Origin: Oceanospirillaceae bacterium
GTDB taxonomy: Bacteria > Pseudomonadota > Gammaproteobacteria > Pseudomonadales > Balneatricaceae
DNA length: 64,000 nt
Reading direction: 5' to 3'
NCBI GenBank assembly: GCA_013215445.1
Contig: JABSRA010000008.1
Span: 1-64,000 of the forward strand
The position numbers and the translations under genes were made by a program. Shown here in pieces: positions 1,126-40,633 of the stretch. Below the pieces are notes generated by a model. The model did no database searches. It saw nothing but the letters and a program-made list of their open reading frames with translations, and was not told the origin of the DNA. Numbering within the stretch: position 1 is the stretch's first letter; each line of letters opens with the position of its first letter.

Positions 1126-2361
1126 TCATTCACTGATTGAGTCTTTTCTGCCTAACTCAAAAGCGGAGTGCAGAGAGCGAACCGCTAGTTCCAAATATTT
1201 TTCTGCCATCACCACTGAAATTTTAATCTCTGAGGTAGATATCATTTGAATATTTATATTCTCAGCCGCTAACGCATCAAACATTTTAGTGGCCACGCCC
1301 GCGTGTGAGCGCATACCAACACCGACAATAGAAACTTTGGCAATTTTATTATCACCTTTAACTTCACGCGCATTCAGCGCTTTAGCCGTATTATTTAGTA
1401 TTAACAGGGCTTGATCAAAGTCATTTCGATGCACTGTGAAGGTGAAATCGGTGGTTTGATCTTCGGCAACATTTTGTAGAATCATATCCACTTCAATATT
1501 TGCTTCACTGATAGGGCCTAATATTTTAGACGCTACTCCCGGTATATCAGGAACTCCCATCACTGTTAATTTAGCTTCATCACGATTAAAAGCTATGCCT
1601 GATATTTCTGGCTTTTCCACGTTGTCATCATCCTCTATCGTTATCAAAGTACCTGGGCCATCTACAAAACTAGACAACACCCGCAATGGCACTTTATATT
1701 TCCCCGCAAACTCTACCGCTCGTATCTGTAGAATTTTAGAACCTAAGCTAGCCATCTCTAACATTTCTTCAAAGGTAATTTCATCTAACCGGCGAGCACC
1801 CTCAACCACTCTAGGATCTGTCGTATAGACACCATCCACGTCAGTATAGATTTGGCACTCATCAGCCTTCAGTGCAGCCGCTAGGGCCACTCCTGTGGTA
1901 TCAGAACCACCACGACCCAAGGTAGTGATATTACCCGCTAGATCAGCGCCTTGAAAACCTGCCACTACCACCACAGCACCCGCGTCGAGATCACTGCGAA
2001 TCTTCTGCACGTCGATGTCTTCAATGCGAGCCTTCATGTGGGTGCTATCGGTTAAAATTTTAACTTGACTGCCAGTGTACGACCTTACTTTCAAGCCCAC
2101 TTGTTCCAATGCCATCGACATCAGGGCGATGGTGACTTGTTCACCCGTTGACAACAGTACATCCATTTCTCTGGGAGACGGAATACTCTGCACCTCTTTA
2201 GCCAGCGTTATCAGTCTATTGGTCTCTCCGCTCATAGCGGACACAGTGACGACTATGTCATGCCCTTGCTGCTTAAATTTTTTAACTTTCTCAGCAACTG
2301 CCTTGATCCGCTCAACTGAACCTACCGATGTGCCGCCGTATTTCTGTACATATAGCGCCAT
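1126..2361 (-). CDS. lysC: aspartokinase
   Basis: Phosphorylates L-aspartate to 4-aspartyl phosphate, the first step toward lysine, threonine and methionine. The 411-residue protein opens with ALYVQKYGGTSVGS, the ATP/aspartate kinase signature, and has GRGGSDTTGVAL in the kinase domain. Residues from about 265 to the end form two ACT domains, the usual site of lysine/threonine feedback. The start chosen is the ATG at 2361, which gives the family's standard N-terminus. A longer reading from 2379 adds six residues and is less likely. Position between alaS and csrA matches the Pseudomonas-type order. Confidence 0.95.
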   Translation of the reverse strand: MALYVQKYGGTSVGSVERIKAVAEKVKKFKQQGHDIVVTVSAMSGETNRLITLAKEVQSIPSPREMDVLLSTGEQVTIALMSMALEQVGLKVRSYTGSQVKILTDSTHMKARIEDIDVQKIRSDLDAGAVVVVAGFQGADLAGNITTLGRGGSDTTGVALAAALKADECQIYTDVDGVYTTDPRVVEGARRLDEITFEEMLEMASLGSKILQIRAVEFAGKYKVPLRVLSSFVDGPGTLITIEDDDNVEKPEISGIAFNRDEAKLTVMGVPDIPGVASKILGPISEANIEVDMILQNVAEDQTTDFTFTVHRNDFDQALLILNNTAKALNAREVKGDNKIAKVSIVGVGMRSHAGVATKMFDALAAENINIQMISTSEIKISVVMAEKYLELAVRSLHSAFELGRKDSISE

Positions 2362-2437
2362 TGCTGTCTCTTTCTCCATTTGTCTGGATCATATTAAAGG
2401 CCCCCGCTTTCGAGCAGGCACCTATACTTCATTGTTA

Positions 2438-5050
2438 TTAGAACTTGCTGGTAAGCTCCGCTAAAAGCGCCTCAAGCGCCTCGGGAAGCGCCTGAACATC
2501 AGTACCGCCCCCCTGTGCCATATCGGGACGACCACCGCCTTTACCCGACACCTGCGCCGAGAGATTCTTAATGATGTCACCGGCTTTAATTTCTTTAGTC
2601 AACGCCTTCGCCACTCCAGCCACTAAGCTGACGCGCCCATTATTAACACTTGCCAATACCACCACCGCATTACCCAGCTTATCTTTAAGCTGCTCTACGG
2701 TCTCGCGCAACGCTTTAGGATCGACATCTTCTAGCGTGGCGACTAATAACTTTACACCGTTTACATCGATGGCATTATTGATTAACTGAGCACCTTTCGC
2801 CGCAGAAATTTGACTCTGCATTTGCTCTACCTGCTTCTCTAAAGCACGGTTTTTATCATTCAGACCTTTTACTTTTTCAAGCAACATGTCCTTAGGCCCT
2901 TTCACAAGCGCGCCAATTTTGGCTAGCTGCAGTTCCATTTCAGCAATATAGCTCAACGCGCCATTGCCTGTTACCGCTTCAATACGGCGTACTCCCGAGG
3001 CAATACCGCTCTCTGATTTTATTTTCAGCAGCGCAATATCACCGGTGCGATTGACATGTGTTCCGCCACAAAGTTCTATAGAAAACGAATCTGTACCCAT
3101 AGTGACCACACGCACACTTTCAGAATACTTTTCGCCAAACAGCGCCTGTGCACCCAGCGCTTTAGCGCTTTCAATATCCATCTCACGAGTAATTACTTGC
3201 GTATTAGCCATGATCTGTTGATTGACCATTGCCTCTACTGCTTGTATTTGATCTGCAGTGACTCCCTCAAAATGAGAGAAGTCAAAGCGCAATTTATCGG
3301 GATCAACCAGTGAGCCTTTTTGCTGCACATGATCACCAACCACAATACGCAGCGCTTCATGCAACAAATGTGTGGCGCTATGATTTAAAGCAGAGGCCTT
3401 GCGCAATGCCGCATCTACCTGCGTTGTAATTAGCTGACCTACTTTAATTTCACCGCTTAGCAACTGACCACGATGTAAATGCAACTCAGATTTTTTAGTA
3501 CAATCTTCAACGATAAAGCTGCTATTACCATCACTTAGCACCCCTTGATCACCCACTTGGCCACCGGACTCACCGTACAGGGAAGTACTGTCGAGAATAA
3601 TAGTGCCGCGCTCACCCGCCTTAAGTGAATCAACTGACTCACCATCCGCTAGGATAGCGATCACGGTACCTTGACCGACTAAATTGTCATATCCACTAAA
3701 TTCGGTAGCACCTTCTAAGTTGAGGTTATCTGTCGCTACTGCGTTGAACTTACCTGCGGCGCGCGCACGCTCTCGCTGCGCTTGCATTTCACGCTCAAAA
3801 CCTTCTGCATCAACGGTTAAACCTAAATCTCTGACTGCATCAGCGGTTAAATCTAGCGGAAAACCATAAGTATCATAAAGGGTAAATGCGGCTTCACCAG
3901 GGAATACTTGCTCATTTTCGGCTAATTTTTCGATAAAGGTATTTAAGTGGCGAAGGCCCAAATCTAGTGTTTTAACAAACTGCTGCTCTTCCTTGAGAAT
4001 AACTTTCTCAATTTGCCCCTGGAGCTTAATCAGCTCTGGGTAAGCCTCGCCCATTTCAGCGCTAAGGGCCGCCACTAACTTATTGAAGAATAAATCTTCG
4101 GCACCTAGTTTTTTACCGTGACAAACCGCACGACGCAAAATTCTACGCAGCACATAACCACGCCCTTCATTGGAGGGCAATACGCCGTCGGCAATCAAGA
4201 ATGAGCAAGAGCGAATATGATCGGCAACTACGCGAAGAGACTTCTCTTCAAGATCTGTGGTACCAATAATTTTAGCGGCGGCCTTGAGCAGATTCTGAAA
4301 AATATCTATTTCATAGTTACTGTGTACGCCCTGCATAATCGCGGCAACACGTTCCAGCCCCATGCCCGTATCGATTGAGGGGTTGGGCAGTTTAGTCTGT
4401 TCTCCGCTGGCATCGCGGTTGAACTCCATAAACACTAAGTTCCAAATTTCTATGTAGCGGTCGCCGTCTTCATTTTCGCTGCCCGGAGGTCCGCCCCAAA
4501 CGTCTTCACCGTGGTCAAAGAAAATCTCGGTACTGGTACCGCAGGGACCGGTATCTCCCATTGACCAGAAGTTGTCGTCTCCTAAACGAGAAAAACGACT
4601 CATATCAATACCGATATCATCGCGCCACAGCGCCTCTGCATCTTTATCCGTATGATGCACAGTCACCCATAACTTATCTTCTGGTAAGCCCAGTTCTTTG
4701 GTCAGAAACTGCCAGGCAAAACGAATGGCATCTTTTTTGAAATAGTCACCAAAGCTAAAGTTACCGAGCATTTCAAAAAATGTATGGTGCCTCGCGGTAT
4801 ATCCTACATTTTCCAAGTCGTTGTGCTTACCACCGGCCCGCACACAGCGCTGCGCCGTCGTTGCTCTTTTATAGGGGCGTTGATCATCCCCGGTGAAAAC
4901 ATCCTTAAATTGCACCATTCCCGCATTGGTAAACAGCAAGGTAGGATCATTGGCAGGCACCAGTGAGCTAGAGGGAACTATCTCATGTCCTTGATCCTGA
5001 TAAAATTTCAAAAAAGCTTGGCGAATTTCAGCACTAGTCATGTATTTCAT
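2438..5050 (-). CDS. alaS: alanyl-tRNA synthetase
   Basis: Charges tRNA-Ala and clears mischarged Ser/Gly. About 870 residues, close to the E. coli enzyme. The class II catalytic core includes [31 protein letters not shown] and [17 protein letters not shown]. The editing domain carries the zinc ligands HSATHLLH and, further on, CGGTHV. The C-terminal part has a coiled coil and the glycine-rich C-Ala domain. The start at 5050 (MKYMTSAE) is preferred over an upstream ATG at 5092, which adds an unusual hydrophobic tail; an ATG at 5041 is also possible. It is followed by lysC on the same strand. Confidence 0.96.
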
Positions 5051-36786: not shown

Positions 36787-38769
36787 TCAATCTAAAAGAG
36801 GCTCCATTGCCACTATTTCTTTTTTATCAGTATTGATGCTGAACCGAACTTTTGTACCTGGCTCCATACCCTTGAGGAGCTGCAAAGATGCGACCTGAAC
36901 CCCCATCACCATCGCCGCCATAAAACCCTGGATCTCCTCATGATCCAACACTATGCGGCGCTTGCGTAGATCCACGGCGACCACAATACCTACGCCTTGG
37001 TAATTGTTAAAGGTTGCTGTGCTGATTTTAGGGGCATGCACAGCTTCGCTTCCCCTGCCAACAACCAGCATGCCGCGCATGCCCATAGGTGCATGAGTTT
37101 CAACATGACAGTGGAATTCTAGAGTAACGTCTTCATCCGGGGTGATAAATCGCGCCGTCTGCTCGCCGGGCCCAGTAAACTCTATAACGAACATGGGACT
37201 GAGTCCCGGTATCATCAGCGCGTGCCGAACTTGATCGGTATTCTCGAATACAACTTCAACTTCCACGCACCGGCCGACGTGCAGGCGGGCAGGTTGAAAG
37301 CCGAATACTTTACCTTCTAAACCTTGCTCAACCCCTCCCTTGAATACGATACGGCGAAAGCCGCGGGGTTTAGCACAAGACTTAGCGATAACTTGATGGC
37401 TATCCAACACACTTTCAGGAACAACAGGAGGAGAATTCTCACGTACTGGGTAGGATAATGTATGGTTACTTAGCTCTTCTTCATCCCAACCGTATTCATA
37501 ATCAGCAACAGTCGTATGAAAAATATTCGGATCAAAAATAGGTACGTTGCCACGATAGTATTCGGGGTCAAAGTAGCGCTTAAGACTGCCAGAAACGCGA
37601 GGCAACCCCTGCTCAGTATCCATAAAGCCTGCATATACTAGCGCGGTAATATCCCCGCCAGGATTAATGCCTTTGTTGGTAGTCGTTTTTTCAGTGTGGT
37701 CATGCATAATCCAGACGCCCGGTCCAGATGCGAAGTCATCATCACTGCCGGGAAGCAATTCCAGATCAATCCGCTGGGCCGCACCAATGGTGAAAACATC
37801 CCTGGTAAATCGTCTATTGAAAGGCACTTCATGTCCATCGACATGAGTCAATATAGGGTGGTGCCCGTGGACATGAAGCTGCAGGGATCGCTCCCCGGCA
37901 TTGAGGATGCGAAGCTTGATCCGTTCGCCGGATTTAACTTCTATTGGCGTATCACGCAAAGTAAATGGAAATGAGCGCCCATTTAGCATGAAAATATTTG
38001 CTTGCCGTTTGCTCGAGTCATAGTCCCGGTGCATACGCTTCTCAATCTCTCGAGGATCCGTGAACATCATTGGAATTCGATTCAGGCGATCATCGATATC
38101 GGTATAGACCAGTGAATATTCCCGGTCGTAGCGCTCCTTAGTCGCTTTAGCTAGATCCTGTATCCGTCCCGCCCCTAATACAAGGTGATTAAACAGATTC
38201 GCTGGGCGGTTCGGCTCAATAATCAGCATACCCGCCAAGCCCATGTTGACATGAACATCCGCCTGCACATGACAATGATAGAAGTGAGTACCCGGGTTTT
38301 TGGCAATAAACTCGTAGCTAAATGATTCACCAGGTTTGACTGCAGCCTGGGTAAATCCGGGCACACCATCCATATCATTGGGGTGGATAGTGCCGTGAAG
38401 ATGAATGGTATGGGGGAAGTAGTGGGTGTTTTTTAAAATTATCCGCACTCGGTCACCCTCCTCCACTCGAATAGTAGGACTAGGCGCTCTGGCGACCGGA
38501 TTCATACCCGCTCCCTCGGGGGCAAAGACCCAGAACTTAACGTACTCACCGGGGTAAACTTCCTCAGTGATCTCTATCACCTCCAGCCGGATTTCCACCT
38601 CATCTGGATCACCGTCTCCATCTAAATCCTTCCCGAGGACAATAGCTTGCGTTGAGGTACCTTGGATCTTAGGCTCACCCCAATCAGTAGCAGCTGTTGC
38701 TGCACAAGCCACGAAGGTCAGTATCAATAAGGTTGTAACTTTTTGAAACAGGCCAGACGTCCACTTCAT
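36787..38769 (-). CDS. multicopper oxidase fused to a C-terminal CusF-like domain
   Basis: 660 residues with a Sec signal peptide (cleavage near 27). Copper ligands: HTIHLHG (120-126), HFYHCHVQ (162-169), HVHGHHP (299-305), MHDHTE (355-360), and a C-terminal cupredoxin with His516, EFHCHVETHAPMGM (551-564), which looks like a type 1 site. Residues 590-657 (GIVVAVDLRKRRIVLDH, GFMAAMVMG, LKGMEPGTKVRF) match the CusF copper-chaperone fold, with Met pairs where CusF binds Cu(I). It probably oxidises Cu(I) or another metal or phenolic substrate in the periplasm, with the CusF module delivering or sensing copper (inference). Domain positions are estimates. Confidence 0.85.
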   Translation of the reverse strand: MKWTSGLFQKVTTLLILTFVACAATAATDWGEPKIQGTSTQAIVLGKDLDGDGDPDEVEIRLEVIEITEEVYPGEYVKFWVFAPEGAGMNPVARAPSPTIRVEEGDRVRIILKNTHYFPHTIHLHGTIHPNDMDGVPGFTQAAVKPGESFSYEFIAKNPGTHFYHCHVQADVHVNMGLAGMLIIEPNRPANLFNHLVLGAGRIQDLAKATKERYDREYSLVYTDIDDRLNRIPMMFTDPREIEKRMHRDYDSSKRQANIFMLNGRSFPFTLRDTPIEVKSGERIKLRILNAGERSLQLHVHGHHPILTHVDGHEVPFNRRFTRDVFTIGAAQRIDLELLPGSDDDFASGPGVWIMHDHTEKTTTNKGINPGGDITALVYAGFMDTEQGLPRVSGSLKRYFDPEYYRGNVPIFDPNIFHTTVADYEYGWDEEELSNHTLSYPVRENSPPVVPESVLDSHQVIAKSCAKPRGFRRIVFKGGVEQGLEGKVFGFQPARLHVGRCVEVEVVFENTDQVRHALMIPGLSPMFVIEFTGPGEQTARFITPDEDVTLEFHCHVETHAPMGMRGMLVVGRGSEAVHAPKISTATFNNYQGVGIVVAVDLRKRRIVLDHEEIQGFMAAMVMGVQVASLQLLKGMEPGTKVRFSINTDKKEIVAMEPLLD

Positions 38770-38840
38770 AATTTTTTAACATCCATACTGAGTAAACTAT
38801 AACCACCCATTGAGTCGCTTACCTAAAGATTCAGAGCTAG

Positions 38841-39185
38841 TTACTTTTTCATGTAATTCCAGTGAAGCAGATCGGCGGCTTTGGCATAGCCGAGTGACGT
38901 ATCAGCTTTTGCAAGGGAGCGAGCATGGTCGTATGCGCCTTGAGGTTTCTGATGGTTGTGCTTGGCACTGCTCAATTGCATCTTAGCGTCATCGAGTAGT
39001 GCATGTACCAGTGCCATTTTCTCCTTAGACATCTGACCTTTCATACCCTTCATATCGGCGACAACTTTGTCGATGGCTGATTGGGCCACAGCAAAATGTG
39101 CCGGGCACTCAAAGGCTTGTGCACTGGTTGATATCTGCAAAAGTAGAATGCTGGCACTCGCCAATAATAACGTTTTGATATTCAT
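38841..39185 (-). CDS. small periplasmic Met/His-containing helical protein
   Basis: 114 residues with a clear Sec signal peptide (MNIKTLLLASASILLLQIST, cleavage after AQA near residue 24). The mature protein begins FECPAHFAVAQSAI and has two long helices with repeated methionines (DMKGMKGQMSKEKM) and a KHNHQK histidine cluster. No named family was recognised. It lies 71 bp upstream of the multicopper oxidase on the same strand, so it is probably part of a copper-handling operon. Confidence 0.6.
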   Translation of the reverse strand: MNIKTLLLASASILLLQISTSAQAFECPAHFAVAQSAIDKVVADMKGMKGQMSKEKMALVHALLDDAKMQLSSAKHNHQKPQGAYDHARSLAKADTSLGYAKAADLLHWNYMKK

Positions 39186-40054: not shown

Positions 40055-40633
40055 ATGAAAATTATAAATATTATTGCTGCGACTATTACAACGAGCTTAT
40101 TATTGGGATGTGCCACAGGTAAGACTCCTGAGGATAAAAAGAAAAATGCTCAAAAGGAAACCGCGAAAGCCCTGCAACAAATTTATAAAGACCATCCATC
40201 ATCAAAATCAGTAATTAATCAAAGTTTAGCTTATTTAGTCTGCACAGGAAGTGATGGATATTTATTTGCAGCTTCATTAAGTGGCGGCGTTTGTACTCTT
40301 AAAGAAAAAGGTAAATCTGAATTTTATCGTTTCGCTTCTGTAGGTGTCGGTATGGGTATTGGTTTTAAACAAGTGGCTTTTGTTTATGCTTATAGTAGTG
40401 CGCAAGCATTAAAGCGCTTTAAAGAAGAAGGCTGGGATGCTGGTGCTAGGGCTGAAGTAAGCGCAATAGATGAAGATGAAGGTGGACAAGCAGTAGCTAA
40501 CACATCTTATGATGTTGACGGCGTAAGAATATACCAATCAGCATTGTGGGGCGCAGCAGCACAAGCAACAGTTCAAGGCTATAAATTTTGGCCTACAGAT
40601 TTTACCCATGATGTAATACAAAATAGTGAATAA
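40055..40633 (+). CDS. lipoprotein, possibly SYLF/YSC84-like
   Basis: 192 residues. A lipoprotein signal peptide ends at the lipobox LLLGC (Cys19). The mature protein has a lysine-rich helix (KTPEDKKKNAQKETAKA) and then a glycine-rich region (FASVGVGMGIGFKQVAFVYA, LKRFKEEGWDAGARAEV) with the look of a SYLF (YSC84) lipid-binding domain, though this is a tentative match. It ends WPTDFTHDVIQNSE. The last 78 coding bases are duplicated at 42952-43037. Confidence 0.65.
   Translation: MKIINIIAATITTSLLLGCATGKTPEDKKKNAQKETAKALQQIYKDHPSSKSVINQSLAYLVCTGSDGYLFAASLSGGVCTLKEKGKSEFYRFASVGVGMGIGFKQVAFVYAYSSAQALKRFKEEGWDAGARAEVSAIDEDEGGQAVANTSYDVDGVRIYQSALWGAAAQATVQGYKFWPTDFTHDVIQNSE

Follow-up and report, generated by a model that had tools for sequence, protein, structure and literature searches.

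A multicopper oxidase with a type-C core joined on one chain to a third cupredoxin and a CusF domain

On the reverse strand of the window, a 64,000-nucleotide stretch at the start of contig JABSRA010000008.1 from an Oceanospirillaceae bacterium, two genes lie 71 nt apart in the same orientation (Table 1). The first encodes a small protein, here called P114, and the second a multicopper oxidase in which Pfam recognizes oxidase domains, a cupredoxin (residues 490–570) and, at residues 590–651, the CusF_Ec family (PF11604). The initial annotation had described this pair, a 660-residue oxidase carrying CusF after residue 590 and a 114-residue protein directly upstream, and its coordinates prove exact; it missed the link between CusF and the third cupredoxin (D3), and the type-C core formed by the first two (D1 and D2). 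The start of the oxidase, judged hydrophobic by eye, would route the enzyme to the periplasm: within the first 40 residues, positions 6–24 give the top 19-residue hydropathy mean (1.67), the best value elsewhere being 1.39, in the CusF part. In the AF2 model, built as a monomer, D1–D2 are predicted mostly at pLDDT 84–96, interrupted by a poor loop at 360–371, and D3 at about 55–74, with a second poor linker at 574–587. The alignment behind the model has 23 rows, just 3 of which cover D3 and CusF, and this is perhaps why the pLDDT of D3 is modest.

Table 1. Coordinates of the two genes and of the parts of the oxidase in the window
Feature	Position	Strand	Basis or content
P114, 114 aa, three-helix, apparently secreted, first gene of pair	38841..39185	(-)	ORF; AF2
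Multicopper oxidase ORF, 660 aa, D1-D2-D3-CusF	36787..38769	(-)	Pfam Cu-oxidase_3, Cu-oxidase_2, Cupredoxin_1, CusF_Ec; AF2
Signal-peptide-like N-terminus of oxidase, residues 1-27	38689..38769	(-)	by eye; hydropathy; model helix 5-23
D1 cupredoxin, residues 57-190	38200..38601	(-)	type-1 site and half of trinuclear site
D2 cupredoxin, residues 255-413	37531..38007	(-)	second half of trinuclear site (H299, H301, H356, H358)
Linker between D2 and D3, residues 431-469	37363..37479	(-)	pLDDT <50 in model
D3 cupredoxin, residues 467-573	37051..37371	(-)	second type-1 set H516, C554, H559, M564
CusF domain, residues 588-660	36790..37008	(-)	Pfam; ligands H610, M620, M622; five model strands

Conservation of the copper ligands was followed in 83 homologues. 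A contig scan gave at least 597 matching stretches, with 209 relatives among the matches listed; the best 80 of these 209 were kept, and 3 homologues from a genome search complete the set. Alignment with the laccase 2zwn assigns H120, C166 and H173 to the type-1 site of D1 and H123, H125, H165 and H167 to its share of the trinuclear site, and all seven residues are identical in 83 of 83. The D2 ligands are present in 82, the remaining sequence running into the end of its contig. Position 178, which we take to be the axial place of the D1 type-1 site, is Leu in 81 homologues and Met in 2. The trinuclear ligands, in the order HxH, HCH, HxH, HxH, thus span D1 and D2, and the type-1 site sits in the N-terminal cupredoxin. 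By sequence, the best solved relatives are the two-domain laccases 2zwn and 3g5w, both of which we presume to be type C oxidases, and a fold search with the oxidase model, whose matches came from the core region, returns the same two at Z 30.5 over 280 and 282 aligned residues; copper nitrite reductases are also near in fold. A type-1 site in the N-terminal cupredoxin, with trinuclear ligands drawn from both domains, is the layout given for type C in one account (PMC13151041), and the oxidase core is of this two-domain kind. The protein as a whole goes beyond the two cupredoxins of type C, with D3 adding a third domain and its own type-1 set; since D3 is a third cupredoxin, the oxidase is built on a type-C core and is no plain member of the type.

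Solved and named enzymes place the protein further. 2zwn, a metagenome laccase, and 3g5w, a blue copper oxidase of Nitrosomonas europaea, share the core fold and ligand layout, but their chains of 339 and 318 residues lack both the third cupredoxin and CusF. Closer in plan is the Nitrosopumilus maritimus oxidase 9cck, which combines a two-domain-like core with a C-terminal cupredoxin according to its PDB title, and whose chain C matches the window core at Z 26.8 over 261 residues; its chains of 309 and 409 residues leave no space for CusF, unlike the window protein, and no publication on it was recognised in the literature searched. With the cuprous oxidases CopA/PcoA and CueO the window protein shares the multicopper oxidase type and, possibly, Cu(I) oxidation. 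Identity with plain CopA/PcoA was rejected, the TIGR01480 model giving 87.3 bits against a cut-off of 478.95, as was identity with CueO (51.6 against 525 bits); no oxidase family of NCBIfam is matched over its cut-off. CutO, finally, is grouped with laccase-like, typically three-domain oxidases, whereas the window core has two domains.

D3 is an intact type-1 cupredoxin by its ligands. Among the 73 homologues that possess a D3 (drawn from the best-80 set and the 3 others), H516, C554 and H559 occur in all and M564 in 69, Leu replacing it in 4. Position 555 is His in five, exactly the clade members L024–L028, and Asp in 51, Glu in 16 and Gly in 1 of the others. The window D3 scores 36.5 bits with Cupredoxin_1 (cut-off 27); this match falls below cut-off or is missing in the other proteins described below, whether fused or split, and Cu-oxidase_2 passes in the three split ones. 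D3 is homologous to a cupredoxin encoded by a neighbouring gene in the wider relatives. In such separate D3 cupredoxins (L003:2872-3753, L004:605-1363, L020:406-1023) the C-terminus looks hydrophobic by eye, and an N-terminal stretch is rich in His and Met, L003 and L020 showing repeats of the kind MDHSQM there.

The identity of the last domain rests on family and structure alike. CusF_Ec is recognized at E 2.5e-10 (40.5 bits, cut-off 27), and at the same place in the fused homologues L024, L025 and L121 (E 4.6e-13, 7.2e-12 and 4.2e-13), which rules out chance similarity. By sequence, the tail matches solved chains weakly: seven chains at E 0.23 to 0.88, comprising SilF, CusF, SilB and one copper substrate-binding protein. 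Five strands are predicted (589–600, 605–610, 620–626, 640–646 and 651–657), with ten-residue pLDDT blocks of 82–91 except for 65 at residues 611–620, the metal-site loop. The model thus sets CusF as a separate five-stranded unit after a disordered linker, outside the third cupredoxin; Pfam agrees, and together they exclude the possibility, raised in the initial annotation, that the tail is part of D3.

CusF binds its metal through a His, two Met and a Trp. In the window domain, H610, M620 and M622 align with the His and two Met of E. coli CusF and are identical in nine of nine rows. The Trp is missing: E. coli aside, none of the eight CusF domains compared (seven from the clade and one copy on a cyclase, described below) has a Trp at that place. 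An ungapped back-count from the MxM motif puts Met617 there, and MAFFT puts an Ala, with the loop one residue shorter. Applied to 32 other CusF domains, the same crude back-count gives Trp in 21, Met in 7 and a position out of register in 4, so Met at the Trp place is not particular to the oxidase fusion. The window domain has in common with E. coli CusF/SilF the domain family and the His and two Met ligands, yet only 14 of 77 aligned residues are identical to E. coli CusF, and its loop is the shorter by one residue and without Trp. Lacking the capping Trp, it belongs to the PF11604 family without being an E. coli-type CusF. According to one review, the CusF Trp stabilises Cu(I) and blocks redox reactions (PMC3817396); another source reports higher Cu(I) affinity upon Trp-to-Met substitution and calls the exact function of the Trp unclear (PMC7558416).

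The same architecture recurs, intact and divided. Three further single-ORF fusions were found, in a SAR324 MAG, a Burkholderiales MAG and a genome listed as 100% complete (G867, 669 aa). The best 80 of the 209 relatives contain two of these single-ORF fusions (L024 and L025, 64% and 59% identical to the window protein), three loci in which a core gene stands beside a D3-CusF gene (L026, L027 and L028, all MAGs), one locus that ends with its contig (L033), and 74 others, of which 65 have a separate D3 gene nearby and 9 have no visible D3. All three other fusions and all three split D3-CusF proteins score over the Pfam cut-off for CusF, which has no match in the locus DNA of the 74 wider relatives. 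Counted by hand, the D3-CusF gene of the split loci starts 22–23 nt past the core stop, with a signal-peptide-like start of its own, and the stop/start falls at the window's linker 431–469. In these three homologues CusF sits on the D3 gene and the core on a gene of its own. Since CusF stays with D3 in the split loci and is missing from the 74 wider relatives, its constant partner is D3, not the core. A quick tree of 47 of 85 rows, including every second two-domain row and carrying a long-branch warning for L065, separates the eight clade rows from 39 two-domain rows at SH-aLRT 100; the three split rows group next to the window's own row at 93, with values of 87 and 88 within them, and the fused rows need three changes. 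The clade found thus has eight members, seven of them with CusF, the eighth being short and cut by its contig. As the relatives are the best 80 among the matches listed, more members may exist.

CusF is joined to other proteins elsewhere, and the initial annotation's statement that it is normally a separate chaperone is half right. A search of 274 genomes of the class finds CusF_Ec in 63, and none of 30 CusF loci from that search has an oxidase core in the CusF ORF. A separate oxidase gene lies near CusF in two of the 30 (L144 and L158), directly adjacent in L158; a gammaproteobacterial survey describes clusters of CusF by co-occurrence with CueO, PcoC and others (PMC3548706). Nine longer CusF ORFs, of 315–631 aa, were chosen from the 30 loci for Pfam, and seven of them are CusB-CusF; the remaining two are a DUF411 fusion and a protein whose front part lacks a Pfam family. 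In CusB-CusF (SilB-type), CusF is C-terminal in a larger protein, as in the window oxidase, but its partner there is an efflux adaptor, whereas here it is an oxidase. Fusion of CusF as such is common, and fusion to an oxidase looks rare; no publication describing one was recognised in the literature searched, subscription journals being mostly outside its scope. The DUF411-CusF gene (L131:1498-2442, minus strand) comes from genome G249, which shares its class with the window genome.

P114 accompanies the oxidase throughout the clade members found. A homologue stands directly upstream in L024–L028 and L033 (40–67% identical) and also in G867, which places it before the oxidase in all eight clade members found, the window included. 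The other loci of the 103 examined, the window aside, have none (next best E 1.6). Among 398 genomes sampled from the phylum, P114 is found in the window genome and G867, a third, weak match (E 6.5e-4, with a stop) being doubtful; within the family of G867 it occurs in one of 250 genomes, G867 itself, and plasmid records gave no match. The initial annotation had called the protein rich in Met and His: with six of each in the 90 residues after residue 24, or 6.7% each (11 neighbouring proteins: 2.8% Met and 2.4% His), the enrichment exists but is modest. The AF2 model (pLDDT 84) predicts helices at 27–46, 54–79 and 84–113 behind a signal-like start. No Pfam or NCBIfam family matches over cut-off, and a fold search of the PDB returned nothing at E <=0.001, its best matches being small helix bundles (2kub, 3rgu) and FAT domains. 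P114 thus represents an unnamed small protein family that accompanies the cassette, presumably as a small helper made together with the oxidase. Its position recalls the CutF-CutO-CutG operon described for R. capsulatus, where a small exported protein is likewise encoded just upstream of an oxidase (PMC8456105). The hallmark of CutF given there is a CXXXC-type Cys motif with a C-terminal PP (PMC8456105). P114 has a single Cys that is invariant among its homologues, no CXXXC or variant of it and no C-terminal proline motif, and identity with CutF was rejected.

The scatter of the cassette, over MAGs whose titles range from SAR324 through Burkholderiales to 'Deltaproteobacteria' among the best 80 of the 209 relatives, suggests horizontal spread; no mobile element or empty site for it was found. 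Across 144 genomes, the window's own included, the whole oxidase matches in that genome only. G104 and G109, of the same order, hold two-domain relatives, and G104 and L041, the latter titled Gammaproteobacteria, have identical cores. When D3-CusF served as query against 369 genomes of the class, 11 matched at E 1e-10; the window's own match alone passes residue 126 of 195 into CusF. Among the oxidase matches in 3674 plasmid records, none covers at least 80%. Within the genus (seven genomes), the glycosyltransferase gene adjoining the oxidase is confined to the window genome, and G006 carries an 87% copy of the window's chemotaxis gene, with no match for any other of 43 window genes in the 40 kb around it. 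Beside the cassette, at window positions 40055-40633 (plus strand), lies a gene for a lipoprotein like the SYLF-domain protein BPSL1445, at 47 bits below the cut-off of 200. Promoter-like sites are fewer than in shuffled sequence, terminator-like sites number 5 against 2.6 (SD 1.7), and inverted repeats gave nothing useful.

In the window genome, the single CusF_Ec match is the window oxidase. E. coli CusF is a separate protein; here the domain is joined to a cupredoxin, with no CusCBA adjoining. Among 12 neighbouring genes, Pfam finds no pump gene, no copper theme and no cusA, cusB or cusC beside CusF. The initial annotation was thus right that no pump stands next to the pair, but the contig also encodes a copper P1B ATPase (G000:C170:64432-66237), a little beyond the end of the window and at a distance of about 25.7 kb. 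It is one of four copper P1B ATPases over cut-off in the genome, which could supply Cu(I). No CusA/CzcA pump (TIGR00914) passes its cut-off in the genome (best 318.8 against 701.45 bits), an absence that, at 93% completeness, is no proof. A true CopA is encoded elsewhere (TIGR01480, 853 bits), as is a third oxidase that scores 177 bits with the CueO model against its cut-off of 525.

What emerges is a four-domain copper enzyme that is real, conserved and apparently rare, and that combines known parts in a new way. The initial annotation had proposed a copper donor or sensor placed next to the oxidase; the fusion is real, and the appendage is better described as a D3-CusF module serving the oxidase. 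We give about an even chance to a periplasmic cuprous oxidase with Cu(I) capture tethered to it through D3-CusF. CusF would capture Cu(I), D3 would take the electron (or the copper) from CusF and hand it to the D1 type-1 site, and the trinuclear site would reduce O2. The net effect would be Cu(I) oxidation and detoxification in a cell where no usual Cus pump was found, and P114 would assist. The intact D1–D2 ligands, the D3 type-1 set, and the His and two Met of CusF argue for this reading, and absence of the Trp shield would suit a CusF whose Cu(I) is meant for oxidation. Outside the clade, the co-occurrence of CusF with CueO and the oxidase gene near CusF in two of 30 loci also speak for it. 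The fixed pairing of CusF with D3, to which the core may be attached or not, likewise favours a relay over direct loading of the core. A precedent may be E. coli PcoA oxidising PcoC-held Cu(I), as a title cited in a review has it (PMC3817396). Several points run the other way. CusF is described as serving mainly extrusion, not cuproprotein biogenesis (PMC7558416); a third cuprous oxidase looks redundant in a genome that already has CopA and another oxidase; a Met-rich insert like that of CutO is not evident by eye in the window oxidase; and within the predicted CusF domain, confidence is lowest at the metal-site loop.

The main rival of the relay is a metallochaperone acting in cis, in which CusF loads copper into the oxidase or D3 during maturation with help from P114. 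CutF is thought to load R. capsulatus CutO in trans and is needed for CutO activity (PMC8456105), CusF can take Cu(I) from CopA (PMC8456105, PMC7558416), and P114 is placed like CutF, small, upstream and with a signal-like start. We nevertheless consider such loading somewhat unlikely: the 74 wider relatives among the best 80 of 209 have the core with no CusF in their locus DNA, so loading may not need CusF, and P114 lacks the Cys and proline features of CutF. Alternatively, the enzyme could act on another substrate (phenolics, Mn, Fe or nitrogen oxides), with CusF merely a copper buffer or safety store. The closeness of the core to laccase-type two-domain enzymes, its fold near copper nitrite reductases, and the presence of methanotrophs and Nitrosomonas among the wider relatives would fit such a role. 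The joint retention of P114 (eight members) and CusF (seven) across lineages is more than a passive buffer seems to need, and makes a different substrate unlikely.

A regulatory role is also conceivable, with D3-CusF as a copper sensor through which Cu(I) switches the activity or binding partners of the oxidase. A CusF-bearing cyclase in L028 indicates that the module can couple to a signalling enzyme, but this fusion occurs in one MAG and no other extra CusF ORF was seen in loci L024–L103; we regard a sensor in the window oxidase as highly improbable. That the whole arrangement is an artefact, through chimeric assembly or chance similarity, has a negligible chance: the window and most relatives do come from draft or metagenome assemblies, but the single-ORF form occurs four times, in separate genomes of which one is listed as 100% complete, with the same domain order and the same upstream gene, which refutes it. 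The same layout with P114 in distant bacteria looks like a built-in copper-handling machine, not an accident.

A broader reading can tentatively be advanced, one that is possible although its chance is clearly below even. The D3-CusF module would be a transferable Cu(I) reader that, lacking the Trp shield, makes Cu(I) the electron donor of the oxidase in a protein of six coppers; with P114 it would form a pump-free detoxification cassette scattered horizontally, and in one lineage a copy of its CusF, placed on a membrane-anchored cyclase, would act as a copper sensor. The handover of Cu(I) between a carrier and a periplasmic oxidase involves transient contacts and is therefore difficult to investigate. 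With carrier, relay and oxidase on one chain, and natural split forms as controls, metal transfer could be distinguished from electron transfer by direct measurement.

The cyclase itself (L028:7140-8618, plus strand) is a class III adenylate/guanylate cyclase (PF00211, E 3.6e-12) with a C-terminal CusF_Ec (E 3.7e-14) and one strongly hydrophobic segment. It is encoded just downstream of the D3-CusF gene, with whose CusF its own shares 54 of 78 residues, and is possibly a membrane-anchored copper-sensing cyclase. A further copper-linked match lies on the Variovorax plasmid NZ_LR594664.1 (L120), where the oxidase query matches the second half of a DUF4396-annotated gene (1852-3819) surrounded by genes for a P-type ATPase, cueR, a heavy-metal two-component system and a copper-binding protein.
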